From: Candidatus Paraprochloron terpiosi LD05
GTDB lineage: Bacteria > Cyanobacteriota > Cyanobacteriia > Cyanobacteriales > Prochloraceae
DNA length: 64,000 bases
Direction: 5' to 3'
NCBI GenBank assembly: GCA_018141785.1
Contig: CP073341.1
Coordinates: 372,001-436,000, forward strand
In this document: positions 2,836-51,765 of the stretch, piece after piece
How positions within the stretch are numbered: position 1 is the first letter of the stretch
Layout: every line of letters begins with the position of its first letter
Notes under the pieces: model-generated
Told to the model about the DNA's origin: nothing
Seen by the model: only the letters and a program-made list of their open reading frames with translations
The model's database searches: none
Position numbers and translations under genes: made by a program

Positions 2836-3828
2836 GGGCGACTCGTTCTGGGCGAAAAGTCGCGGCTTAATAGCCAAATGACATAACCCCAGGCTAGGTA
2901 TTTTGTACCTTGACAACTAAATCAGGAATGTTGGTGAGGAGCTGGTCAGCAATCAGTCTTCCAAGTCCAACCGCTTAGGGGATAAGCGAATCTCTATCTG
3001 CCCACACGCAACTGTGAATTCAAGCAGGCGATAGGGGTTAGTCTCCGGGGCGTGAAGCTGGGAACAGGGCGGAATCAGACACGAAAGTGACCCTGCCTAA
3101 TGCCGGAGAATCCATGGTCAACAGGTATCCTAGAAATAGGTACGCACTCACCGGAAAAAGCGTCTAATTTGTAGGAGTACAGCGTTTAGTTTGGGGGGAG
3201 ACCTCCTTAATGGGCAACAAGAACCGATAACCAAAACCCTGCTGCGTTTTGCATAGGATAGCAGCATTCCTAGGGGGTCGGTAGGCGAAGTGGTGAGACC
3301 TAAAGATTCGGAACAATTTCTGATTTGGAACGAGGAAAAACGAATGGTTCTTTCTAAGCGGGGTGGTACCCGGAGAGGGAGGGCAGACATACCTCTATCG
3401 AGACCATTCGGATAGGACGCGGGAACGAAAGCCACGATGCTAAACAATTGCCCGCAATGTGTTGGAGCTAATTTCTATCCAAAAAGGTGACGCCTAGGCT
3501 GAAAATATGCTGTATACCACCGTGGAGACACGGATGAGAGGATAACCTAGTTCCGAATTTGAGGTCTGGGTAAGACGACAGCCGAGTAGGAATCATTTTC
3601 AAACTCAGGTTCCTGTAAAACCGAGTAAGAACCAGTAAAACTGATGCTGGATAGGACAGGCAAAGATTGCCACAACCTGACGCACCAAACTAGATAGAGG
3701 CAATCAACGGATTTTATGCCCTTTGCGGTAGGTTTCAATCCACAGGTCATAGGAGCCGTGTGAGGTGAAAGTCTCACGCACGGTTCTGAAAGGGAGCTGG
3801 GGTGGGCGACCACTCCTTCGACCCGAAC
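2836..3828 (+). mobile_element. ORF-less group II intron (993 nt) inside the DUF4347 gene
   Basis: Boundaries were set by alignment to the other introns in this window. The 5' end GGGCGACTCGTTC corresponds to GTGCGGCTCGTTC of family A (second base T to G). The 3' end is a domain VI helix followed by TTCGACCCGAAC, which corresponds to the family A end CTCGACTCTAAT. Domain V is a 34-nt hairpin at 3753-3786 (GAGCCGTG...CACGGTTC) with the expected GTGAAAGTC loop region. No reverse transcriptase is encoded. Removal joins the two parts of the host gene in frame. The non-standard first base pair region (GGGCG instead of GTGCG) is a possible splicing defect. Confidence 0.85.
3753..3786 (+). ncRNA. 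Group II intron domain V hairpin
   Basis: A 34-nt stem-loop that begins GAGCCGTG and ends CACGGTTC, the catalytic domain V of the surrounding intron. The basal and distal stems can pair fully, so the catalytic core looks intact in this copy. Domain VI follows at about 3790-3822. Confidence 0.85.
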
Positions 3829-7429: not shown

Positions 7430-8316
7430 CCGTGAATGCCCACAGCGATGCGGTGAGGGTAAATGCAGCCCTGACCCTGGTCAAATCTAAGAATATTGGC
7501 GTGGGCATCGGGGTGGCGATCGATGATAGCGATCGCCAGGTGAGAGCCATTATTGGGGATGACAAGGACGATGCGGAGGCGATCGCCGCTCGCCAGAGCG
7601 AAACAGATCCGACCCAAAAACCCCGGACCTCGATTAATGTATCGGGCGATATCGATGTCAGTGCCAAGGTCACTGGCGCTGTGGTCAGCACTGCGTTAGG
7701 GATCAACTGGGCCCAAGCCGTATCCAGTGGAAGCCCTAGCAGTCAATCGTCGGGTAGTGGCAGCTCCAGTGGCTCTTCGTTAATAAATGAACCCTCCCCC
7801 ACCGCCACAACATTTGGTCATGACCTTAGTTTTCCATCACTTCCTGAATCTGGCTCTTCTTTTCAGCCTTATTCAAGCTCTTCAAACCCGTCACCTTCAT
7901 CCTCTGGAACACAATCACCTACTAAAAAGCCCTTTGGCAAGTTGTCCAAGTTAGAAAACGACGTTGGTGATAAGTTCTTAAAGCACCTCAAGAAACTAAC
8001 CTACGAACGCCGTTCCTTCGCCTTGGGAATCACCGGAGGCGTGGCTGGCAACATTCAAACAGAGTCTGCTAAGGCCTACATCTATGACTACCATGGCGAC
8101 GGATTGGTCACCGCGAGAGAGGGCGGTGATGTGCGGGTTAATAGTGAAAACCAAACCCTGACCCTGTCCATTGCGGGTCTCTTAACGGCGGCGGGTACAA
8201 AACAGGAAAATAAGCCAACTAAAGTTCCGAGCTCGCGGCTGTGGATAGATACAGATGGCTCATCCTCTAGCGACGATCAATCCATTGTCTCAGCTTCTTT
8301 GGGGGCCGTCAAAAGA
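7428..8316 (+). pseudogene. DUF4347 surface protein, third segment, truncated
   Basis: Third part of the surface-protein gene, in the frame opened after the SDR-alpha insertion (VNAHSDAVRVNAALTLVKSK). It contains solenoid-like sequence, then a low-complexity linker of Ser/Gly/Pro (SSGSGSSSGSSL, SSSSNPSPSSSGTQ) and a further beta-rich block ending SSSDDQSIVSASLGAVKR. Similarity to a protein stops at about 8313-8317, where group II intron sequence begins abruptly. No continuation is found beyond the intron. The 3' part of the gene, where secretion or anchoring signals might lie, is missing. The whole gene would encode about 2,000 residues up to this point. Confidence 0.75.
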
Positions 8317-8403
8317 TGAGTCCCAAGGGTTCAAAACAATAGTTCATTCCCAACGAGTAAAAACTCGCTTAACTTCCACGGAAACTGGGGATTCCAAGCC
8401 CAA

Positions 8404-8428
8404 CCCCCGCCATCGCGGATGCCGGGGG
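8404..8428 (+). repeat. SDR-alpha copy in intron A2
   Basis: Palindrome CCCCCGCCATC...GATGCCGGGGG, in inverted orientation relative to the copy at 8646. It replaces the short segment that in copy A3 joins the 5' part to GTGGTGGGGTCGCCTGATTA. Confidence 0.75.
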
Positions 8429-8645
8429 CGCGGCTGCGCAGGAGCAGGCATGTGAAGTGGTGGGGTCGCCTGATTAACGGCCTATCGGAAAGGCGAGGGT
8501 AAGAGAGGGCGTAACTGCCCGATGGTTTCTACAGAAAAGATACTCAACGTAATTATCAGAGCGACTAACGAGGTCAAAATTGTGAATATCACTAACCAGA
8601 CTTCAACCGAATACCGCAGTCTGAAAGCCTTGAGACTCCACTTAG

Positions 8646-8670
8646 CCCCCGGCATCCTCGATGGCGGGGG
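8646..8670 (+). repeat. SDR-alpha copy inside the intron RT gene
   Basis: CCCCCGGCATC-CTC-GATGGCGGGGG. Compared with copy A3, 24 nt stand where 13 nt are expected (net +11), which breaks the maturase frame after residue 22. Confidence 0.75.
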
Positions 8671-9940
8671 GCGGGGAAGATTGGCCGGAGGGCTGACGAT
8701 GTCTGGAAAGACCTACCATGGAAGCGATTCCGAGGGCAGGTATTTCGGTTACAACGGTGTATCTTCAAAGCGCAAAAGAACAATCAAAAAGCCAAGGTCA
8801 AACGTTTACAACGGCTCTTACTTCGGAGTCGTGCAGCCCAGGCACTGGCCGTCAAACAAGTAACACAGTTAAATACAGGGCGTAAGTCCCCCGGAGTTGA
8901 TGGGAAAACAGCACTCTCCACCAGAGAGCGTCTAGTGTTGTGTCAAAGGCTGAATAAGCACTGGTACCACTGGAAACACCAGCAACTGAGAAGGGTAAAT
9001 ATCCCCAAGCCAAACGGCAAAACAAGGGGATTAGGCATCCCGACAATAGCCGACCGGGCATGGCAAGCGTTGCTCAAGTTAGCAGCCGAGCCTGCCTACG
9101 AAGCAACTGCCGGAGAAAGAAGCTACGGCTTCCGACCCGGTCGCTGTACTGCGGACGCACAAAAGCTAATCTTCGACAACCTAAAGAGCCAAACAAATGG
9201 CAAGGACAAGCTGATTCTGGAAACAGATATCAGCAAATGCTTTGACGAAATTGACCACAAGGTCATGCTCGATGGAATAGTCCTACCAATCGAAGCTTTA
9301 AAGAGGTTAAAGAGGGCAGTAAAAGCAGGCGTTCGTGGCGAATACCCCTCCAGTATAAAGGGCACACCCCAAGGCGGGGTTATCTCACCCCTACTGGCCA
9401 ACATCGCTCTAGATGGATTTGAGAACCTAGGGTCAAACCAATGGAAGAGAGAACGGTCAAGGCCGCTAATAAGGGGCATTCGTTACGCGGACGACGCGGT
9501 CTTTATCTGTAAACCCGGAGCTGACACCAAGAGGCTACGGGAGGACATCGACGAATTTTTGAAGTCCAGAGGGCTAAGAATTAACGAAACTAAGACTAAG
9601 GTGAGTAAAGCTACGGATGGTTTCGATTTCCTGGGGTGGCGCTTCCGCGTTAATTCCCGTGGAGTCTTCAAATCCACACCGAGTTGGGAGAATCATGCAG
9701 ACATCAAGGCTAAGGTAAAAGCTACTTGGAGAAATGGCGCAACCACGGAGGCTCGCCTGAAAAGGATAGAGTCACAAGTCCGAGGCGGTCGTCAAAATCA
9801 TAAAAACTGCGATATGAACAAGCACTCGCTATGGTCGCTCAATCACTGGGTTTGGCGTAAGCTGAGGCGGGAAAAACGCAGAATGGCAATTAAGGAAGCT
9901 AAGAAAGCAAGACGTCTGGCTATCAAGGGTAAACCCTCAG

Positions 9941-9959
9941 GAGCGCGCGAGGCGCGCTC
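9941..9959 (+). repeat. Perfect small hairpin in the intron RT gene
   Basis: GAGCGCGC-GAG-GCGCGCTC, an 8-bp perfect stem with a 3-nt loop. It is absent from the aligned position in copy A3. Together with the local changes (net -7 nt) it separates the RT and HNH frames. Confidence 0.65.
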
Positions 9960-10327
9960 ACATCAGAGCAGATAAAGAAAGCTTTCCCAACAATTCCCCG
10001 GAAAGTCAATGGCCACGTAATGGTCAAAGGTAATGCCTCACCCTTCGATGGGAATATCTCCTATTGGGTCAGTCGAAATTCCAAACTATATAGTGGGCCA
10101 ACCGCTGAAGCTATCAAGCGACAGAAGGGTAAGTGTCAGCATTGCAACCGTAAGTTCATGGAGATAGACGGTACCGTGGAGTTGCACCACATAGACGGTA
10201 ACCACAACAACTGGAAACGTAAGAATCTAGTTGCCCTCCACCGAGAATGTCACCAAGCGCAGACGGTACACCGAAAACGCATTAAAGACGGACTCGCGAA
10301 GCGCGCCGTTAAGGCATAGGAGCACCT

Positions 10328-10361
10328 GAGCCGGATGCGGTGAAAGTCGCATGTCCGGTTC
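10328..10361 (+). ncRNA. Group II intron domain V (copy A2)
   Basis: 34-nt hairpin GAGCCGGATG...CATGTCCGGTTC with the conserved GTGAAAGTC segment. It is not interrupted here, unlike the two relic copies at 41870-42152 and 44797-45114. Confidence 0.8.
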
Positions 10362-10404
10362 GTCGGAGAGGGGCGAGCTGCGTGGCAGCTCCCTCGACTC
10401 TAAT

Positions 10405-43900: not shown

Positions 43901-44927
43901 TAGCTTCTTAGTAGCAACCAAGCTATTACTGCTAACGATTTGTGCCGCTACTTTATGAGACCAGTCGTGGCGTTGATTGGCAACTTTGCGCAATATGTTT
44001 GCTAATTAGACCTTGAACCTTACGCCATCTTCGTGTTGCCTTAGTCTTCCTTTTTTCTGGTGGGCGTTTTCGCCTTAACTGTTTGGAAAGCTGCTTGACT
44101 TTTTGAGCTGCTTTAGCCTGAAACTTTGGAGCTTCTATAAACTCTCCATCTGATGTAGCTATAGCTACTTTACACCCAAAATCTAACCCAATAGCTTCTG
44201 TGCCAGTTTGCCTTTCTGGGACACAATTAACTGTGATGTTCGCGTACCATTTATTGTTGCTCCAAACTAGAGTGCAAGTTGTTGGTTTTCCCCAGGTTCT
44301 AGCACGACCACGCATAGGAATTGACAGCTTTAAATCTCTCAATTCTAGGTACCCATTTACTCCCATATTCATCTTGCACTTTCCACCCGGTGGCAGAAGA
44401 GGGATAAATCCATCCTCTATAACGTCGTTTTGCTTTGAACCTGGGATATTTAGCCAACCCTTTGAAAAAGCGCTGATAGCCAAAATCCACACGCAAAGAC
44501 GCAAAGCCCGCGAAGGGTTGTAAAACAGGCGGTTCAGCCGTACATGATCCCCATTGGGTTCCTTGGCGCCTTTGCGCCTTGGCGCGATCCTTTCTCTTTA
44601 GCGTTGCCTGTAGAGTTTGAGAACCCAATTCTTTGTATTCAGGCCAGACCTCTTTAAATACAGGAAGTGAGTTCTGCTGCTCAAAATAATCCACTGAATG
44701 CCCGAAGCGCTTATATTGAGTTTGACGATTAGCAATGGCAGCGTTGTAGAGCGCGCAGTGCATCTTGCGGGCCTACCGCTGACAGAAAGGAAGATGCGCT
44801 CATTGCAATCGATTGTTCATGGAGATAGATGGTACCGTGGAATTGCATCACATAGATGGTAACCACAACAACTGGAAACGCAAAAATCTAGTTGCTCTCC
44901 ATCGGGAATGTCACCAAAAGCAGGCGG

Positions 44928-44954
44928 GACGCCAAGGGCGGCACCTTCGGTGTC
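44928..44954 (+). repeat. SDR-beta copy in the HNH region of relic A5
   Basis: GACGCC...GGTGTC, where intact copies read CAGACGGTACACCG. Confidence 0.75.
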
Positions 44955-45045
44955 ACCGCAAGCGAATTAAGGACGGACTCGTAAAGCGCGCCTCCCATTG
45001 GCGTAGAAGCACCTGAGCCGGATGAGGTGAAAGTCTCACGTCCGG

Positions 45046-45072
45046 GACGCCAAAGGCGGCACCTTCGGTGTC
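45046..45072 (+). repeat. SDR-beta copy in domain V of relic A5
   Basis: GACGCC...GGTGTC after GTCCGG and before GTAGGAG, the same site as in relic A1. The bases TC at its end restore part of the basal stem partner of GAG. Confidence 0.8.
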
Positions 45073-45283
45073 GTAGGAGAGGGGCGGTGTGGCAACACAC
45101 CCCTCGACTCTAATGAAGGTAGATTTACAGTAGTTGAACGAGAGCAAGTTCATCAGCGACCATTACCTAGTCTCAAAAATAAATATATGCTTTAATAAAT
45201 AATAATACACAAAACTAATATGCTTAATATTTTATTAAAACGAGGTTGGCTGGAGTTATTGTCAGTATGTAGGCTACATCAAA

Positions 45284-46352: not shown

Positions 46353-46462
46353 ATATTTCTATTTCAACACATACTATGATAGTTAAGTATTAGAGTCGAG
46401 GGAGATGTTGCCACCTCGCCCCTCTCCTACGAACTGTACGTGAGACTTTCACCTCATACAGC

Positions 46463-48203
46463 TCAGGTGCTTCTTACGCCCTTAAGGCGCGCGTTTTCGA
46501 GTCCGTCCTTAATGCGCTTGCGGTGTACCGTTTGCGCCTGGTGACATTCCCGATGAAGAGCAACTAGATTCTCGCGTTTCCAGTTGTTATGGTTGCCATC
46601 TATGTGATGCAATTCCACGGCACCATCTGTCTCCATGAACAATCGATTGCAGTGCTGACATTTGCCCTCTTGTCGCTTAATGGCATTGGCGGTTGGCCCA
46701 CCGTATAGTTTGGAGTTGCGACTAACCCAGTAGGAAATATTCCCATCGTAGGGTGAGGCATCACCTTTAACCATCACGTGGTTATTGGCTTTCCAAGAAA
46801 CTGTCGGGAAAGCTTTCCTTACCTGCTCTGTTGTGAGCTGGCGCTTTGCAGCCCCTTTAATCGGCTTTTTGCCTCTAGTGGCCATCCGTCGTGCTTTCTC
46901 AGCTTCCTTAATCGCCGTCCTGCGTTTTTCAGCCCTCAGCTTATGCCATACCCAGTCATTGAGCGACCATAGCGAGTGCTTGTTCATATCGCAGTTTTTG
47001 TGATTTTGACGACCGCCTCGGACTTGTGACTCAATCCTTTTCAGGCGAGCTTCCGTGGTTGCACCACAATTCCTGAGTTGCTTTTACCTTGGCCTTTATG
47101 TCTGCATAATTCTCGGAACTCGGTGTGGATTTGAAGACTCCACGGGAATTCACCCTAAAGTGCCATCCCAGGAAATCAAATCCATCCGTAGCTTTACTCA
47201 CCTTAGTCTTAGTTTCGTTAATTCGTAGCCCGGAAGACTCCAGGAATTTGTCGATATCTTCCCGTAGCCTCTTGGTGTCGGCTTCGGGTTTACAGATAAA
47301 GACCGCGTCATCTGCGTAACGAATACCCCTTATGAGAGTCCGACTCCTTTTCCGTTGATTCGTCCCTAGGTTCTCAAATCCATCTAGGGCGATGTTGGCC
47401 AGTAGAGGCGAGATAACCCCGCCTTGGGGGGTACCCTTAATACTGGAGGGGTATTCACCACGGACGCCAGCTTTTACAGCTCTCTTTAACCCCCTTAAAG
47501 CTTCGATTGGTAGGACTACCTTTCTGAGCATGACCTGGTGGTCAATTTCATCAAAGCATTTACTGATGTCTGTTTCCAGTATCAGTTTATCCTTGCTCTT
47601 TGTGTTACTCTTGAGGTTATCAAAGATGAGCTTTTGTGCGTCCGCAGTACAGCGACCGGGTCGAAAGCCGTAGCTTCTTTTTCCGGCGGTTGCTTCATAG
47701 GCTGGCTCTGCTGCTAACTTGAGCAGCGCTTGCCACGCCCTGTCGGCTATTGTAGGAATGCCTAACCCCCTTGTTTTACCGTTAGGCTTGGGGATGTTTA
47801 CCCTTCTCAGTTGCTGGTGTTTCCAGTGGTGCCAGTGCTTGTTTAGCCTTTGACACAACACTAGACGCTCTTTAGTAGAGAGTGCGGTTTTGCCATCAAC
47901 TCCGGGGGACTTACGCCCTGTATTTAACTGTGTTACTTGTTTGACGGCCAGTGCTTGGGCTGCACGACTCTGTAATAGGAGCCGTTGTAAACGTTTGACC
48001 TTGGCTTTTGATTGTTCTTTTTGCGCTTTGAAAATACACCTCTGTAACCGAAATACATGACCCCGGAATCGCTTCCACGGTAGGTCTTTCCAGACGTCGT
48101 CAGCCCGAAAGCCAGTCTTCCCCGCCCGCAGGAGTACTGCTAGGTGGAGTCTCAAGGCTTTCAGACTGCGGTATTCGATTGAAGTCTGGTTAGTGATATT
48201 CAC
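46463..48203 (-). pseudogene. Group II intron RT-maturase-HNH (copy A3), one frameshift
   Basis: The GTG at 48203 starts MNITNQTSIEYRSLKALRLH. The RT domain is open to about 47085: RSYGFRPGRCTADAQ, ETDISKCFDEIDHQV, GTPQGGVISPLLANIALDGF, GIRYADDAVF and FDFLGWHFRV. A single extra base at about 47062-47085, compared with copy A2, ends the frame at 47031. The maturase/HNH remainder continues in another frame (MNKHSLWSLNDWVWHKLRAE from 46987; CQHCNRLF, ELHHIDGNHNNW, HREC to 46463). RT and HNH residues are intact, so reversion or slippage would give a full protein of about 580 residues. Confidence 0.92.
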
Positions 48204-48457
48204 AGTTTGACCTCATTAGTCGTTCTGATAATTACATTGGGTATCTTCTCTGTAGAAACCATCGGGCAGTTACGCCCTTCTTACCCTCGTTCTTCCGATA
48301 GGTCGTTAATCAGGCGACCCCACCACATTGCATGTCGGGTTTGGAACCCCTTGTTTCAGTGGAAGTTGAGCGAGTTTTTACTCGTTCCGAATGAACTATT
48401 GTTGTAAAAACCCTTGGGACTCATCCATTGACCTATCACCAACTCAGGAATGCAAGT

Positions 48458-49288
48458 GTCGAGATAGGTAGACCCTTACAGGTTTTCCCCCTCACAGTAC
48501 CGGGCGTGCAAGTTTCCAAGCACCCGGCTCCTGGTGTATCATCTACTGAACTGGCGCGTTTACTCCTCATTACTTGTATCGGCTTTCAGGTCTCATTCAG
48601 ATTGGGCTTTGAGTCCTTAAATTCCAACCTCCTCGCCATTGACGTTTGCCCGACGCCTCTAACTTATGAGGAGCTTTGAGTTTCAAGTTCCAGCTTTTTG
48701 ATTGCAAAATCGCAAGTGGTAAGGGATTTTACCGTTACGTTTCACCCTCTCCTACGTCAGCTCCCCCCGGCATCGCGGATGGCGGGGGTAGACATTTGCC
48801 TATCTGCCGGGTTATTGATTCCCCTGAACTTTCGTCCTAGCAGCGTTCGCTTCTTAGGATAGTCCTGTCTCCCCTGGGAATTGGTTCGCTTTACAGCTTC
48901 CCTACTGATTTCTCAGACCCAATGGAGGTTTACTCGTTCCACAGTAATTAGATACGTCTGACTTAGGCTGCTCCATACCCCGGCGGCGTGGTGTCTACGC
49001 GATGTCTATAGCAGTCCATCTTTCACATATGCCGCATACCGTTTTGGTTAGAGTGTATCAGTTCCGCTTTCACTCATTGCCACTGACGAGGCTGCAAGCT
49101 TCGCTTTATGCTCACCATATCAGACTTTCCCTAGGCCGTTACCACTATCGGACTAATAGAAAACTTAGCCATTTAACCCTCTAGCTGTGAAACCCCCTCA
49201 TTGCTGCTGAGGCTCCTTCGGGCTGGAACCGGGGAGGACACTCCCCATGGGGTTTTACCCACTAACTACTGCGACTTTCGAGCCGCAC
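48458..49288 (-). mobile_element. ORF-less group II intron, family B (copy B1), nested in A3
   Basis: 831 nt. 5' end GTGCGGCTCGAAAGTCGCAG at 49288; domain V-like hairpin GAGCCGGGTGCTTGG...CCCGGTACTG at about 48500-48535; 3' end ...CTACCTATCTCGAC at 48458. It splits domain I of intron A3. The uninterrupted version of that site is in copy A4 near 51030-51060. It contains an SDR-alpha at 48764. No ORF of note. Confidence 0.85.
48764..48788 (-). repeat. SDR-alpha copy inside intron B1
   Basis: CCCCCGGCATC-GCG-GATGGCGGGGG, absent at the aligned position of B2 (about 49855). This makes it a third-level insertion: a palindrome in intron B1, in intron A3. Confidence 0.8.
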
Positions 49289-49530
49289 GCTATATACTGG
49301 CCTTGCGAGTTTCTTTCGGTGTCTTTTCTGCTCAGGACGGTTGGGCAGTGTCTGACTTTAGGTCTTTTCTCAGATGATTCACGTTAAGTTATCCCGGTGT
49401 TCTCCCTGTTAGCGGTGTTGCCATCAAACCGCTTGATAGCTCCGGTTCCGCCCTGTTGCCAGCTTCAGCCTGATGATTAATCTCACTGTGGCTAGATTAG
49501 GATTCACGTGATTCCTTCACGGGAGGGACT

Positions 49531-50378
49531 GTCGAGATAGGTAGACCCTTACAGGTTTTCCCCCTCACAGTACCGCCGGGCGTACACTTTCAAAGCACCC
49601 GGCTCCTGGTGTATCATCCTACTCCCGGTGCGTTAATTCCCATTTCTAGGACTGGTTTTTCAGGACTATTCCTGCCGTCAGGCAGTCAAGTGGTTTTATT
49701 AATCCTTAGATTTGACCAGTCATCCCCGCCATTAGCGATTAACCATAACGCTTCAAACTTATGGGGAACATTGGGTCTCAAGTTCCAGTTTCAGATTACA
49801 AATCCTGTACGAATGGATTTGTAATTACGTTTCACCCTCTCCTACGTCAGCTCCCCTTTCGAGTAGACATTTGTCTATGAGTCAGGTTATACAGTCGTGT
49901 TTTCCCTCGGACTTTCGCCTATGACGACCTTCGCTTCTTAAGAGAGTCCTTTCTCCCCAGGGAATTGGTACAGATTACTCCTTTCCTACTGGTGCAAGAC
50001 CAGACCCTGTGGAGGTTAACTCGTTTCACAATAGTTAGATACGTCTGACGGCGGGCTGCTCAATACCCCGGCGGCGTGGTGTCTACGCGATGACGGTGAG
50101 ATTCCATCTTTCACATATACCGCATACCATTTTTGGTTAGAGTGTTTCAGTTGGGCTTTCACTCTTCCTACGTAACGAGGCTGCAAGCTTCGCTTTATGC
50201 TCACCATATCAGACTTTCCCTAGGCCGTTACCACTATCGGACTAATAGAAAACTTAGCCATTTAACCCTCTAGCTGTGAAACCCCCTCAAAGAGGGTTGA
50301 GGCTCCTTCGGGCGGGAACCGGGGAAGACACTCCCCATGGGGTTTTACCCACTAACTACTGCGACTTTCGAGCCGCAC
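49531..50378 (-). mobile_element. ORF-less group II intron, family B (copy B2), nested in A3
   Basis: 848 nt. 5' end GTGCGGCTCGAAAGTCGCAG at 50378; 3' end CTACCTATCTCGAC at 49531; domain V-like hairpin at about 49565-49605. It is largely colinear with B1 (shared CGTAGACACCACGCCGCCGG and AAGCGAAGCTTGCAGCCTCG). It splits the 5' half of intron A3 between GAGGGTGAA and AGTCCCTCCCG. Confidence 0.85.
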
Positions 50379-50593
50379 TTCACCCTCATAGTTCATTCAG
50401 TTGTCAAGGTTCGGTAATCCTGTTCCTCTCGCGTTTTCCCTAGCGGGACACGGTAGGGCAGGAGTCGGTTTAACCGTTTTCAGCCCTTTTTGAGGCTTTA
50501 GATTGTCAGTTCCGATGTCCCGGAAACCAAGCCCCCGCTTATGTTTTTGGCTTGCGCCACGACTTTCACAGGGAACGAGCCGCACATATATAA

Positions 50594-50699
50594 GTCATGA
50601 TAGGTAGACCCTTACAGGTTTTACCCCACACAGTACCGGACGTACAACTTTCAAAGTATCCGGGCTTACGCCGCGACCTTCACAGGAAACGAGCCGCAC
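50594..50699 (-). mobile_element. 106-nt chimeric mini-intron relic (B3)
   Basis: Starts with the family A 5' end (GTGCGGCTCGTTTCCTGTGA, then GCGGCGTAAGCC) and passes directly into a family B domain V/VI (GCCCGGATACTTTGAAAGTT, then CCTGTAAGGGTCTACCTATC). It ends CATGAC at 50594. All other domains are missing. Confidence 0.75.
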
Positions 50700-51548
50700 G
50701 CAGGAATAATGCGAGATGGAGTCTCATGGCCCATAGGTTGCGGTATTCGATTGAAGTCGGCTTAGTGATATTCACAGTTTTGACCTCATAAATTCGCTCT
50801 ACTAATTACATTGGGTCTCTTCTCTGTAGAAACCATCGGGCAGTTACGCCCTTCTTACCCTCGCTCTTCCGTTAAGCCGGTAATCAGTCGGCTCCACTTT
50901 CTCACATGTTGGGCTTGGAATCCCCTGCTTCGATAGGAGTTGAGCGAGTTTCTACTCGTTCCGAATGAACTATTGTTTCGGACCCTTGGGACTCATCCAT
51001 TGACCCATCGCCAACTCAGGAATGTAAGTGGTCTTACGCGCCCTTACGAGTTTCTTTCGGCGTCTCTTCTGTCGTGTGTTTAACGGCCTTCCGACAGTGT
51101 CCGTCATTAGATCTTTTCTCAGATGATTCACGTTAGGTTATCCCGGTATCCTCCCTATTAGCGGTCCGCCGCCTAACCGTTCGACTTTGGTAGTTCCACC
51201 CTGTTCCCAGCTTCGGCCCGGCTGATTCCAGCTTCACCGTGGGCAGATAAGGATTCACGTGATTCCTTCACGGGAGAGACTCGGTTGCACGATTTCTGAC
51301 CGTGGCCTCACTCTCATAGTTCATTCAGTTGTCAAGGTTCGGTGATCACTACCTTAGAGTTTCGGGAATCTTATTCAGATTCCCTAATTTCTCTCGCGTT
51401 TCCCTACCGGGTCTTGCGTTCAGGTAAGAATCGGTTTATCCGTTTTCAGCCCCTTTCGTGGCTTAGATTATCAGTACCAATGTCCCGGAAACCAGGCCCC
51501 TGCTTATATTCGGCTTACGCCACGACTTTCACAGGGAACGAGCCGCAC
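50700..51548 (-). mobile_element. Group II intron, family A (copy A4), 5' part only
   Basis: 5' end GTGCGGCTCGTTCCCTGTGA at 51548. 849 nt of domain I to III and the first codons of the RT gene (IEYRNLWAMRLHLALFLR) up to 50700, where relic B3 and then A3 begin. Its 3' part is not found. It is the uninterrupted reference that shows where B1 and B2 entered A3. Confidence 0.85.
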
Positions 51549-51765
51549 CGTTAGATAACGTCCCTGCAAGCTTCGCAAAATGGCTCACCTTACCAGTCTT
51601 TCCTTAGCCCTCTGCATTCTCTAGACAGCCTACAGATTAGACATTACCCTCTAGCTGTGAAACTCCGGCATTGCTACCAAAGCCCCTTCGGGTGGGAACT
51701 GGAGAGACACTCTCCTTTGGGCTCAGACGGCTGAACCACTAACTACTTCGACTTCCGAGTCGCAC
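51549..51765 (-). mobile_element. Group II intron, family B (copy B4), 5' part only
   Basis: 5' end GTGCGACTCGGAAGTCGAAG at 51765, followed by AGTAGTTAGTGG and the family B stem with CACAGCTAGAGGG. It is interrupted at 51549 by the 5' end of A4. Being outermost, it is probably the oldest of the stack. It lies 58 nt from the 3' end of hmpF. Confidence 0.8.

Follow-up and report, generated by a model that had tools for sequence, protein, structure and literature searches.

The stretch of DNA analysed here (the window, 64,000 nucleotides) corresponds to positions 372001-436000 of a 3.84 Mb single-contig genome, and it carries a stack of group II introns in the intergenic DNA between two convergent genes. 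At the core of this stack lies A3, a full-length family A intron coding for a reverse transcriptase (RT), inside which sit two separate group II introns of family B, B1 and B2, both lacking an open reading frame (ORF). Family B membership was assigned by sequence identity. Domain V/VI was detected with the Rfam model RF00029 at a cut-off of 40 bits, and folding and scoring of family B covered the domain V/VI region. The features of A3 are given below in window coordinates with their exon-binding and intron-binding sites 1 (EBS1 and IBS1); q positions are coordinates within the family A or family B intron reference.

46389-50585, minus strand: intron A3, a group II intron of full length that encodes an RT and is split by B1 and B2 (alignment with the outer piece A4, described below, and with other A copies; domain V/VI at the 3' end)
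48458-49288, minus strand: intron B1, ORF-less group II intron of 831 nt within A3 at q449 (identical copies elsewhere; domain V/VI, 52.3 bits)
49531-50378, minus strand: intron B2, ORF-less group II intron of 848 nt within A3 at q206 (near-identical copies; domain V/VI, 29.6 bits)
49292-49297, minus strand: EBS1 of A3, GTATAT, three nt ahead of the B1 insertion point (EBS1/IBS1 matching across A copies)
50586-50591, minus strand: IBS1 of A3, ATATAT, in the 5' flank (EBS1/IBS1 matching)
49007-49012, minus strand: EBS1 of B1, GCTATA (EBS1/IBS1 matching)
49289-49294, minus strand: IBS1 of B1, TATAGC, sharing three nt with the end of the A3 EBS1 (EBS1/IBS1 matching)
50095-50100, minus strand: EBS1 of B2, CTCACC (EBS1/IBS1 matching)
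50379-50384, minus strand: IBS1 of B2, GGTGAA, 5/6 paired (EBS1/IBS1 matching)
47031-48203, minus strand: RT portion (390 aa) of the protein encoded by A3, severed from the HNH part (Pfam RVT_1 and RVT_N)
46463-46987, minus strand: C-terminal part of the A3 protein, weak HNH match (19.0 bits, cut-off 21.4; collinear with the intact 579-aa ORF)

A3 measures 4197 nt, or 2518 nt once B1 and B2 are subtracted, and its 3' end coincides with a domain V/VI match of 59.4 bits at 46389-46466. The family A sequence is continuous across each insertion (q207/205 and q449/449), so that both inner introns lie wholly within A3 and the outer sequence is uninterrupted across them, as the original prediction had proposed. 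B1 and B2 start with GTGCGGCTCG and finish with ...CTCGAC. The domain V/VI of B1 (48458-48532) falls exactly at its 3' end; that of B2 occupies the same place with a score under the cut-off, and B2 is 79% identical to B1 over its full length. Copies 100% identical to B1 occur at genome positions 3596410, in a family A intron, and 3304125, elsewhere, and copies 99.8-99.9% identical to B2 occur at 815728, 1128886 and 3446991. It had also been claimed that A4 displays the empty sites of both inner introns. For B1 this holds, since the empty site is visible in A4 near 51030, as well as in 59 junction-spanning matches in other family A copies. A4 does not serve for B2, because it belongs to a family A subfamily with 25 additional nt at that place; the clean empty site, ATGAGGGTGAA joined directly to AGTCCCTCCC, is carried by other A copies. 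The palindrome noted earlier inside B1 is real, a 25-mer, CCCCCGCCATCCGCGATGCCGGGGG, near 48768-48793 that is dispersed in the genome (237457, 903353, 2155636 and others). Similar palindromes are held by some loops of family A and of the ORF-less family C.

As B1 and B2 occupy the 5' part of A3, where domain I would be, they could have been taken for an ordinary variable portion of that domain. This explanation can be regarded as refuted here: 28 of the 36 full-length B copies have exact ends at unrelated sites outside family A, many A copies are empty, and family B possesses its own domain V/VI.

These 36 ORF-less copies come from the genome stretches around matches, about 0.63 Mb in all, which makes the intron catalogue incomplete and biased to A and B loci. 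All of them have the ends GTGCG...AC, in agreement with the 5' GUGYG and 3' AY of group II introns. Half (18/36) are located in other introns, at few fixed sites, and the other 18 elsewhere, including cellular genes. Eight are in family A (four in the EBS1 loop at q449, three at q206 and one at q1184 in the RT ORF), eight in family C at two sites, and two in the RT ORF of family D. The original suggestion that family A domain I is the home site of family B was thus half right, given that eight copies are in A, but eight are in C, two in D and 18 elsewhere. The chance of finding 18 of 36 copies in introns would be 2e-12 at an estimated A, C and D share of about 6.6% of the genome, 2e-4 if only non-coding DNA tolerates insertion (share put at 22%), and 0.009 at a share of 30%. 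Two pairs of copies, b28/b34 and b14/b30, are not independent, their hosts being near-identical, and look like segment duplications.

B copies at the same site are 96-100% identical, whereas their hosts are only about 81-97% identical at the flanks, save for those two pairs. This comparison supports family B being younger than family A and its copies being younger than the introns that host them. The nest of introns from two families in one orientation, with a dated order, as first proposed, is supported. Copies of one B subfamily are found repeatedly at one and the same host site, and in a tree of family B same-site copies mostly cluster, the A q449 site being represented by two groups, each with one copy from outside A. 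One copy (locus L094, genome 2425146-2425963) has the 5' flank of one family C site (i) and the 3' flank of the other (ii), which suggests that two B copies within a single C intron have recombined.

The choice of these sites is matched by the targeting hexamers. Over 25 distinct loop/site combinations, the B EBS1 loop pairs with the six nt upstream at a mean of 5.44 of 6 positions. The EBS1/IBS1 score is 5.14 for the 25 distinct pairs, against 2.93 (standard deviation 0.21) in shuffles, none of 20000 of which reaches the observed value; with one pair per loop type (16 types), the result is likewise 0/20000. Each host site has one or more EBS1 types particular to it. For family A the score is 4.87 against 2.19, in a register found by scanning, and A3 pairs with its 5' exon as a group II intron does (GTATAT with ATATAT), a match that holds across 35 distinct A copies. 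The family A EBS1 is placed three nt before q449, which means that the four q449 copies, B1 among them, lie within the loop by which their hosts recognise the exon. B1 splits the EBS1 loop of A3 itself, and its removal is accordingly expected before A3 could splice.

Whether the inner introns are still spliced bears on a further explanation, namely that B1 and B2 are dead passengers that retrohomed, are no longer spliced and have left A3 permanently broken. In its favour, A3 codes for a broken protein, the stack lies between genes and the domain V of B2 is weak; the first two points also imply that nothing at this locus demands splicing. On the other hand, B1 has two identical copies and B2 near-identical ones elsewhere, one of which lies in frame in the only close SigF match of the genome, so that these RNAs were mobile recently and one of them is probably spliced. 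We consider the dead-passenger explanation rather unlikely, though it deserves to be taken seriously.

The copy at 3446991-3447838, which interrupts sigF (locus L065, genome 3446348-3447960), is 99.9% identical to B2. An intact close sigF copy was not found in the genome, where the next SigF match is 45% identical and contains a stop. Sense, in-frame B copies are also found in surE, in the sucrose synthase gene and in an Npun_F2552-family gene; when the flanks are joined, the NCBIfam profiles SigF, SurE, sucrose synthase and Npun_F2552-family match across the junction above their cut-offs. Such in-frame copies imply, indirectly, that B introns are spliced from cellular genes. Inside the window, a family C intron of 993 nt without an ORF (2836-3828, plus strand) lies within a DUF4347 surface-protein gene, and its removal restores one open frame of about 1743 codons; its bounds were set by comparison with family D and by this restored frame. 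Family C begins with GGGCG (window 2836) instead of the usual GTGYG. Elsewhere, an A[B] twintron lies in frame in a 427-codon ORF (locus L086, genome 1274302-1277744), which may encode a peptide-synthetase adenylation domain.

Beyond the 5' end of A3, the stack continues with four intron pieces:

50594-50662, minus strand: family B 3' end (domain V/VI), 69 nt (RF00029, 33.5 bits at 50594-50667; B q762-826)
50663-50699, minus strand: A5, the opening 37 nt of a further family A intron (89% identical to A q1-37)
50700-51548, minus strand: A4, family A intron, 5' piece covering q1-785 (alignment to family A)
51549-51765, minus strand: B4, diverged family B intron, 5' piece covering about q1-197 (alignment to family B)

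The original prediction had drawn these pieces, together with A3, as a stack nested to three levels, in which B4 is cut by A4, and A4 in turn by a mini-relic termed B3 and by A3. That A4 and B4 are the 5' parts of a family A and a family B intron was borne out, and so was the mixed nest of B1 and B2 in A3; the third level was not, as A4 and B4 are present without their 3' halves and so do not flank an inner intron on both sides. The segment called B3 (50594-50699) is a chimera in which A q1-37 (37 nt) is joined to B q762-831. As a mini-intron of its own it is ruled out, since it opens with an A 5' end and closes with a B 3' end. Downstream of this B-type 3' end come TTATATAT and then the A3 insertion point, beside A3's own IBS1. 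In sequence comparison at the locus, no continuation of A4 or B4 was found beyond A3. An automatic nesting script had made A3 the guest of a remote A piece at 414055 chained to the 37-nt A start at 422699; this false chain was discounted.

A true three-level nest, B4[A4[B3, A3[B1,B2]]], from which the 3' halves of A4 and B4 were lost by homologous recombination with the 3' part of A3, is nevertheless conceivable. A4 starts within B4 beside an IBS1-like hexamer, CTAACG, that is 5/6 paired with its EBS1 CGTAAG (51033-51038), the strand order of the pieces agrees with the drawing, and real nests of such depth exist elsewhere in the genome. Yet the order of B-type 3' end, TTATATAT, A3 and then non-intron sequence fits a B4 that had closed before A3 arrived, as does the chimeric composition of B3. 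The three-level nest is, in our judgement, unlikely. The simpler reading is B4[A4[A5...]] after a deletion, with A3[B1,B2] adjacent to it. The segment 50594-50662 is probably the surviving 3' end of B4, on which comparison with other B copies is neutral, and with the chimera read in this manner A3 probably lies beside the wreck of B4 and A4 and not inside it.

Deeper nesting does occur in this genome, where about 20 nested loci involve four intron families (A, B, C and D). At 3201442-3208270 the nesting reaches four levels, A[B[A[B]]], in the order A(+), B(+), A(-), B(-), and each host resumes at the matching position; because the inner pair is inverted, it cannot be spliced from the transcript that carries the outer pair. 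One D intron at 1116757-1128262 contains C[B; D], B[A] and C[B], that is, seven introns over three levels, and D[B[A]] is found at 2937846-2943680. Genome-wide, at least 149 group II domain V/VI sites exceed the Rfam cut-off. Two genomes of the same genus have 13 and 22 matches, possibly undercounted given their many contigs. With well over 100 similar introns, assembly is difficult, so that collapsed or mis-joined repeats might have produced false nests. This is highly improbable, as the junctions are exact intron ends, the EBS1/IBS1 matches hold across them, the arrangement recurs at many places in different hosts, and one of the two same-genus genomes, a separate assembly, has a B intron inside the RT ORF of an A intron.

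Taken together, the best explanation, to which we assign a probability of about 85%, is that group II retroelements of two families retrohomed into one another in succession and so piled up at this locus. Family B would be moved and spliced in trans by a protein, probably the RT/HNH protein of D or A, and the EBS1 hexamer, particular to each B subfamily, picks the target. An older nest, B4[A4[A5]], would have lost its middle by deletion, leaving the fragments at 50594-51765. A3 would then have inserted eight nt beyond the 3' end of B4, followed by the entry of B1 (EBS1 GCTATA) into the A3 EBS1 loop and of B2 (EBS1 CTCACC) into a conserved GGGTGA sequence within A3's 5' part. In the RNA, B1 and B2 would leave first and thereby rebuild domain I and the EBS1 loop of A3, which only afterwards could splice, making this an obligate sequential twintron. 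The intron boundaries, the placement of B1 and B2 within A3, the EBS1/IBS1 matches, the youth of the B copies compared with their hosts and the in-frame copies in genes are read directly from the sequence, whereas the helper protein, the past deletion and the occurrence and order of splicing are inferred. As for the helper, family A codes for an RT with an HNH domain, intact elsewhere in the genome as 579 aa in a single frame, and an intact family D RT ORF (590 aa) is also present elsewhere. D is the better guess for the RT/maturase, because the domain V of B is similar to the one in D and to that of an RT-bearing intron of genome G015.

Several points weigh against this explanation. The helper is a guess, the resemblance of the B RNA to D and to the G015 intron being weak; the genome is a single assembled contig; and at the locus itself the A3 protein is broken and the stack intergenic. 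In addition, the domain V of B2 is under the Rfam cut-off, with a poorly paired upper stem, its IBS1 is paired at only 5/6 positions, and copies b15 and b25 fit the EBS1 register poorly.

A broader proposal is that family B is a hyperparasite of group II introns: changes in its EBS1 would have adapted it to conserved sites in at least three other families, among them the loop with which A recognises its exon, so that the invaded hosts depend, genome-wide, on prior B splicing and on a shared trans protein. We offer it tentatively, as a possibility that we would sooner doubt than accept. If true, a bacterium would harbour a genome-wide system of dependent splicing.

Other family A sequences are present in the window. 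The 3' end of another A intron lies at 44801-45114 (plus strand, opposite to A3), just upstream of a tilS-like gene, and accounts for the long inverted repeat with A3. The 3' part of a family A intron (q475-2518) with a domain V/VI match at its end occupies 8308-10404 (plus strand), with an ORF at 8935-9975; it is followed at once, from 10410, by an ORF matching a Cas12f1-like TNB domain. Among named organisms, the cyanobacterium Candidatus Paraprochloron terpiosi SP5CPC1, a sponge symbiont (PMC12465263), has the closest relative of the family A protein.

Only a few genomes are known to have nested group II introns, and in most of these they form a single twintron or one array; this genome offers nested loci with relative ages, empty sites and matched targeting hexamers. 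Such loci could be used to test how introns without an ORF came to depend on a common splicing protein, which has often been suggested as a step in the origin of the spliceosome. That B1 lies in the EBS1 loop of its own host directly explains why splicing should be ordered, and through the B introns in sigF, surE and sucrose synthase the cell would come to depend on the shared splicing machinery. No paper describing this nested system was found in the literature searched, most subscription journals lying outside its reach.

Among known systems, Methanosarcina acetivorans has nested arrays of up to five group II introns, with repeated site-specific homing into group II introns outside genes and losses by recombination, as here (PMC4424553). 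In contrast, in the present genome four families nest both ways, an ORF-less family has several target sites, some copies are in cellular genes, and one D intron holds seven others. In the twintrons of Thermosynechococcus elongatus, the ORF-less TeI3 is inserted in TeI4 and a driver intron-encoded protein (IEP) acts in trans; both systems have identical young ORF-less introns at one conserved site of older, diverged RT-bearing introns, and families that differ in their exon-binding sites (PMC2882425). There, however, the site is in domain IV ahead of the ORF, and inner and outer introns derive from one ancestral intron (PMC2882425), while here B and A show hardly any nucleotide similarity, and B inserts at several sites, the host EBS1 loop among them. 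The Trichodesmium twintron also has its inner intron in host domain I, and reverse-transcription PCR demonstrated that the inner intron splices first; it is a single twintron with IEP ORFs in both members (PMC4649490), whereas the inner introns described here are ORF-less and numerous. Arthrospira platensis, likewise a cyanobacterium with a very high group II load, had the top count of a 2022 survey, 101 introns (PMC8919778), to be set beside the domain V/VI sites counted here by a different method. Nested group II arrays are therefore already known, and the one presented here is an extreme, reciprocal, multi-family variant, unusual in its number of families, reciprocal nesting, copy number and insertion into the host EBS1 loop.

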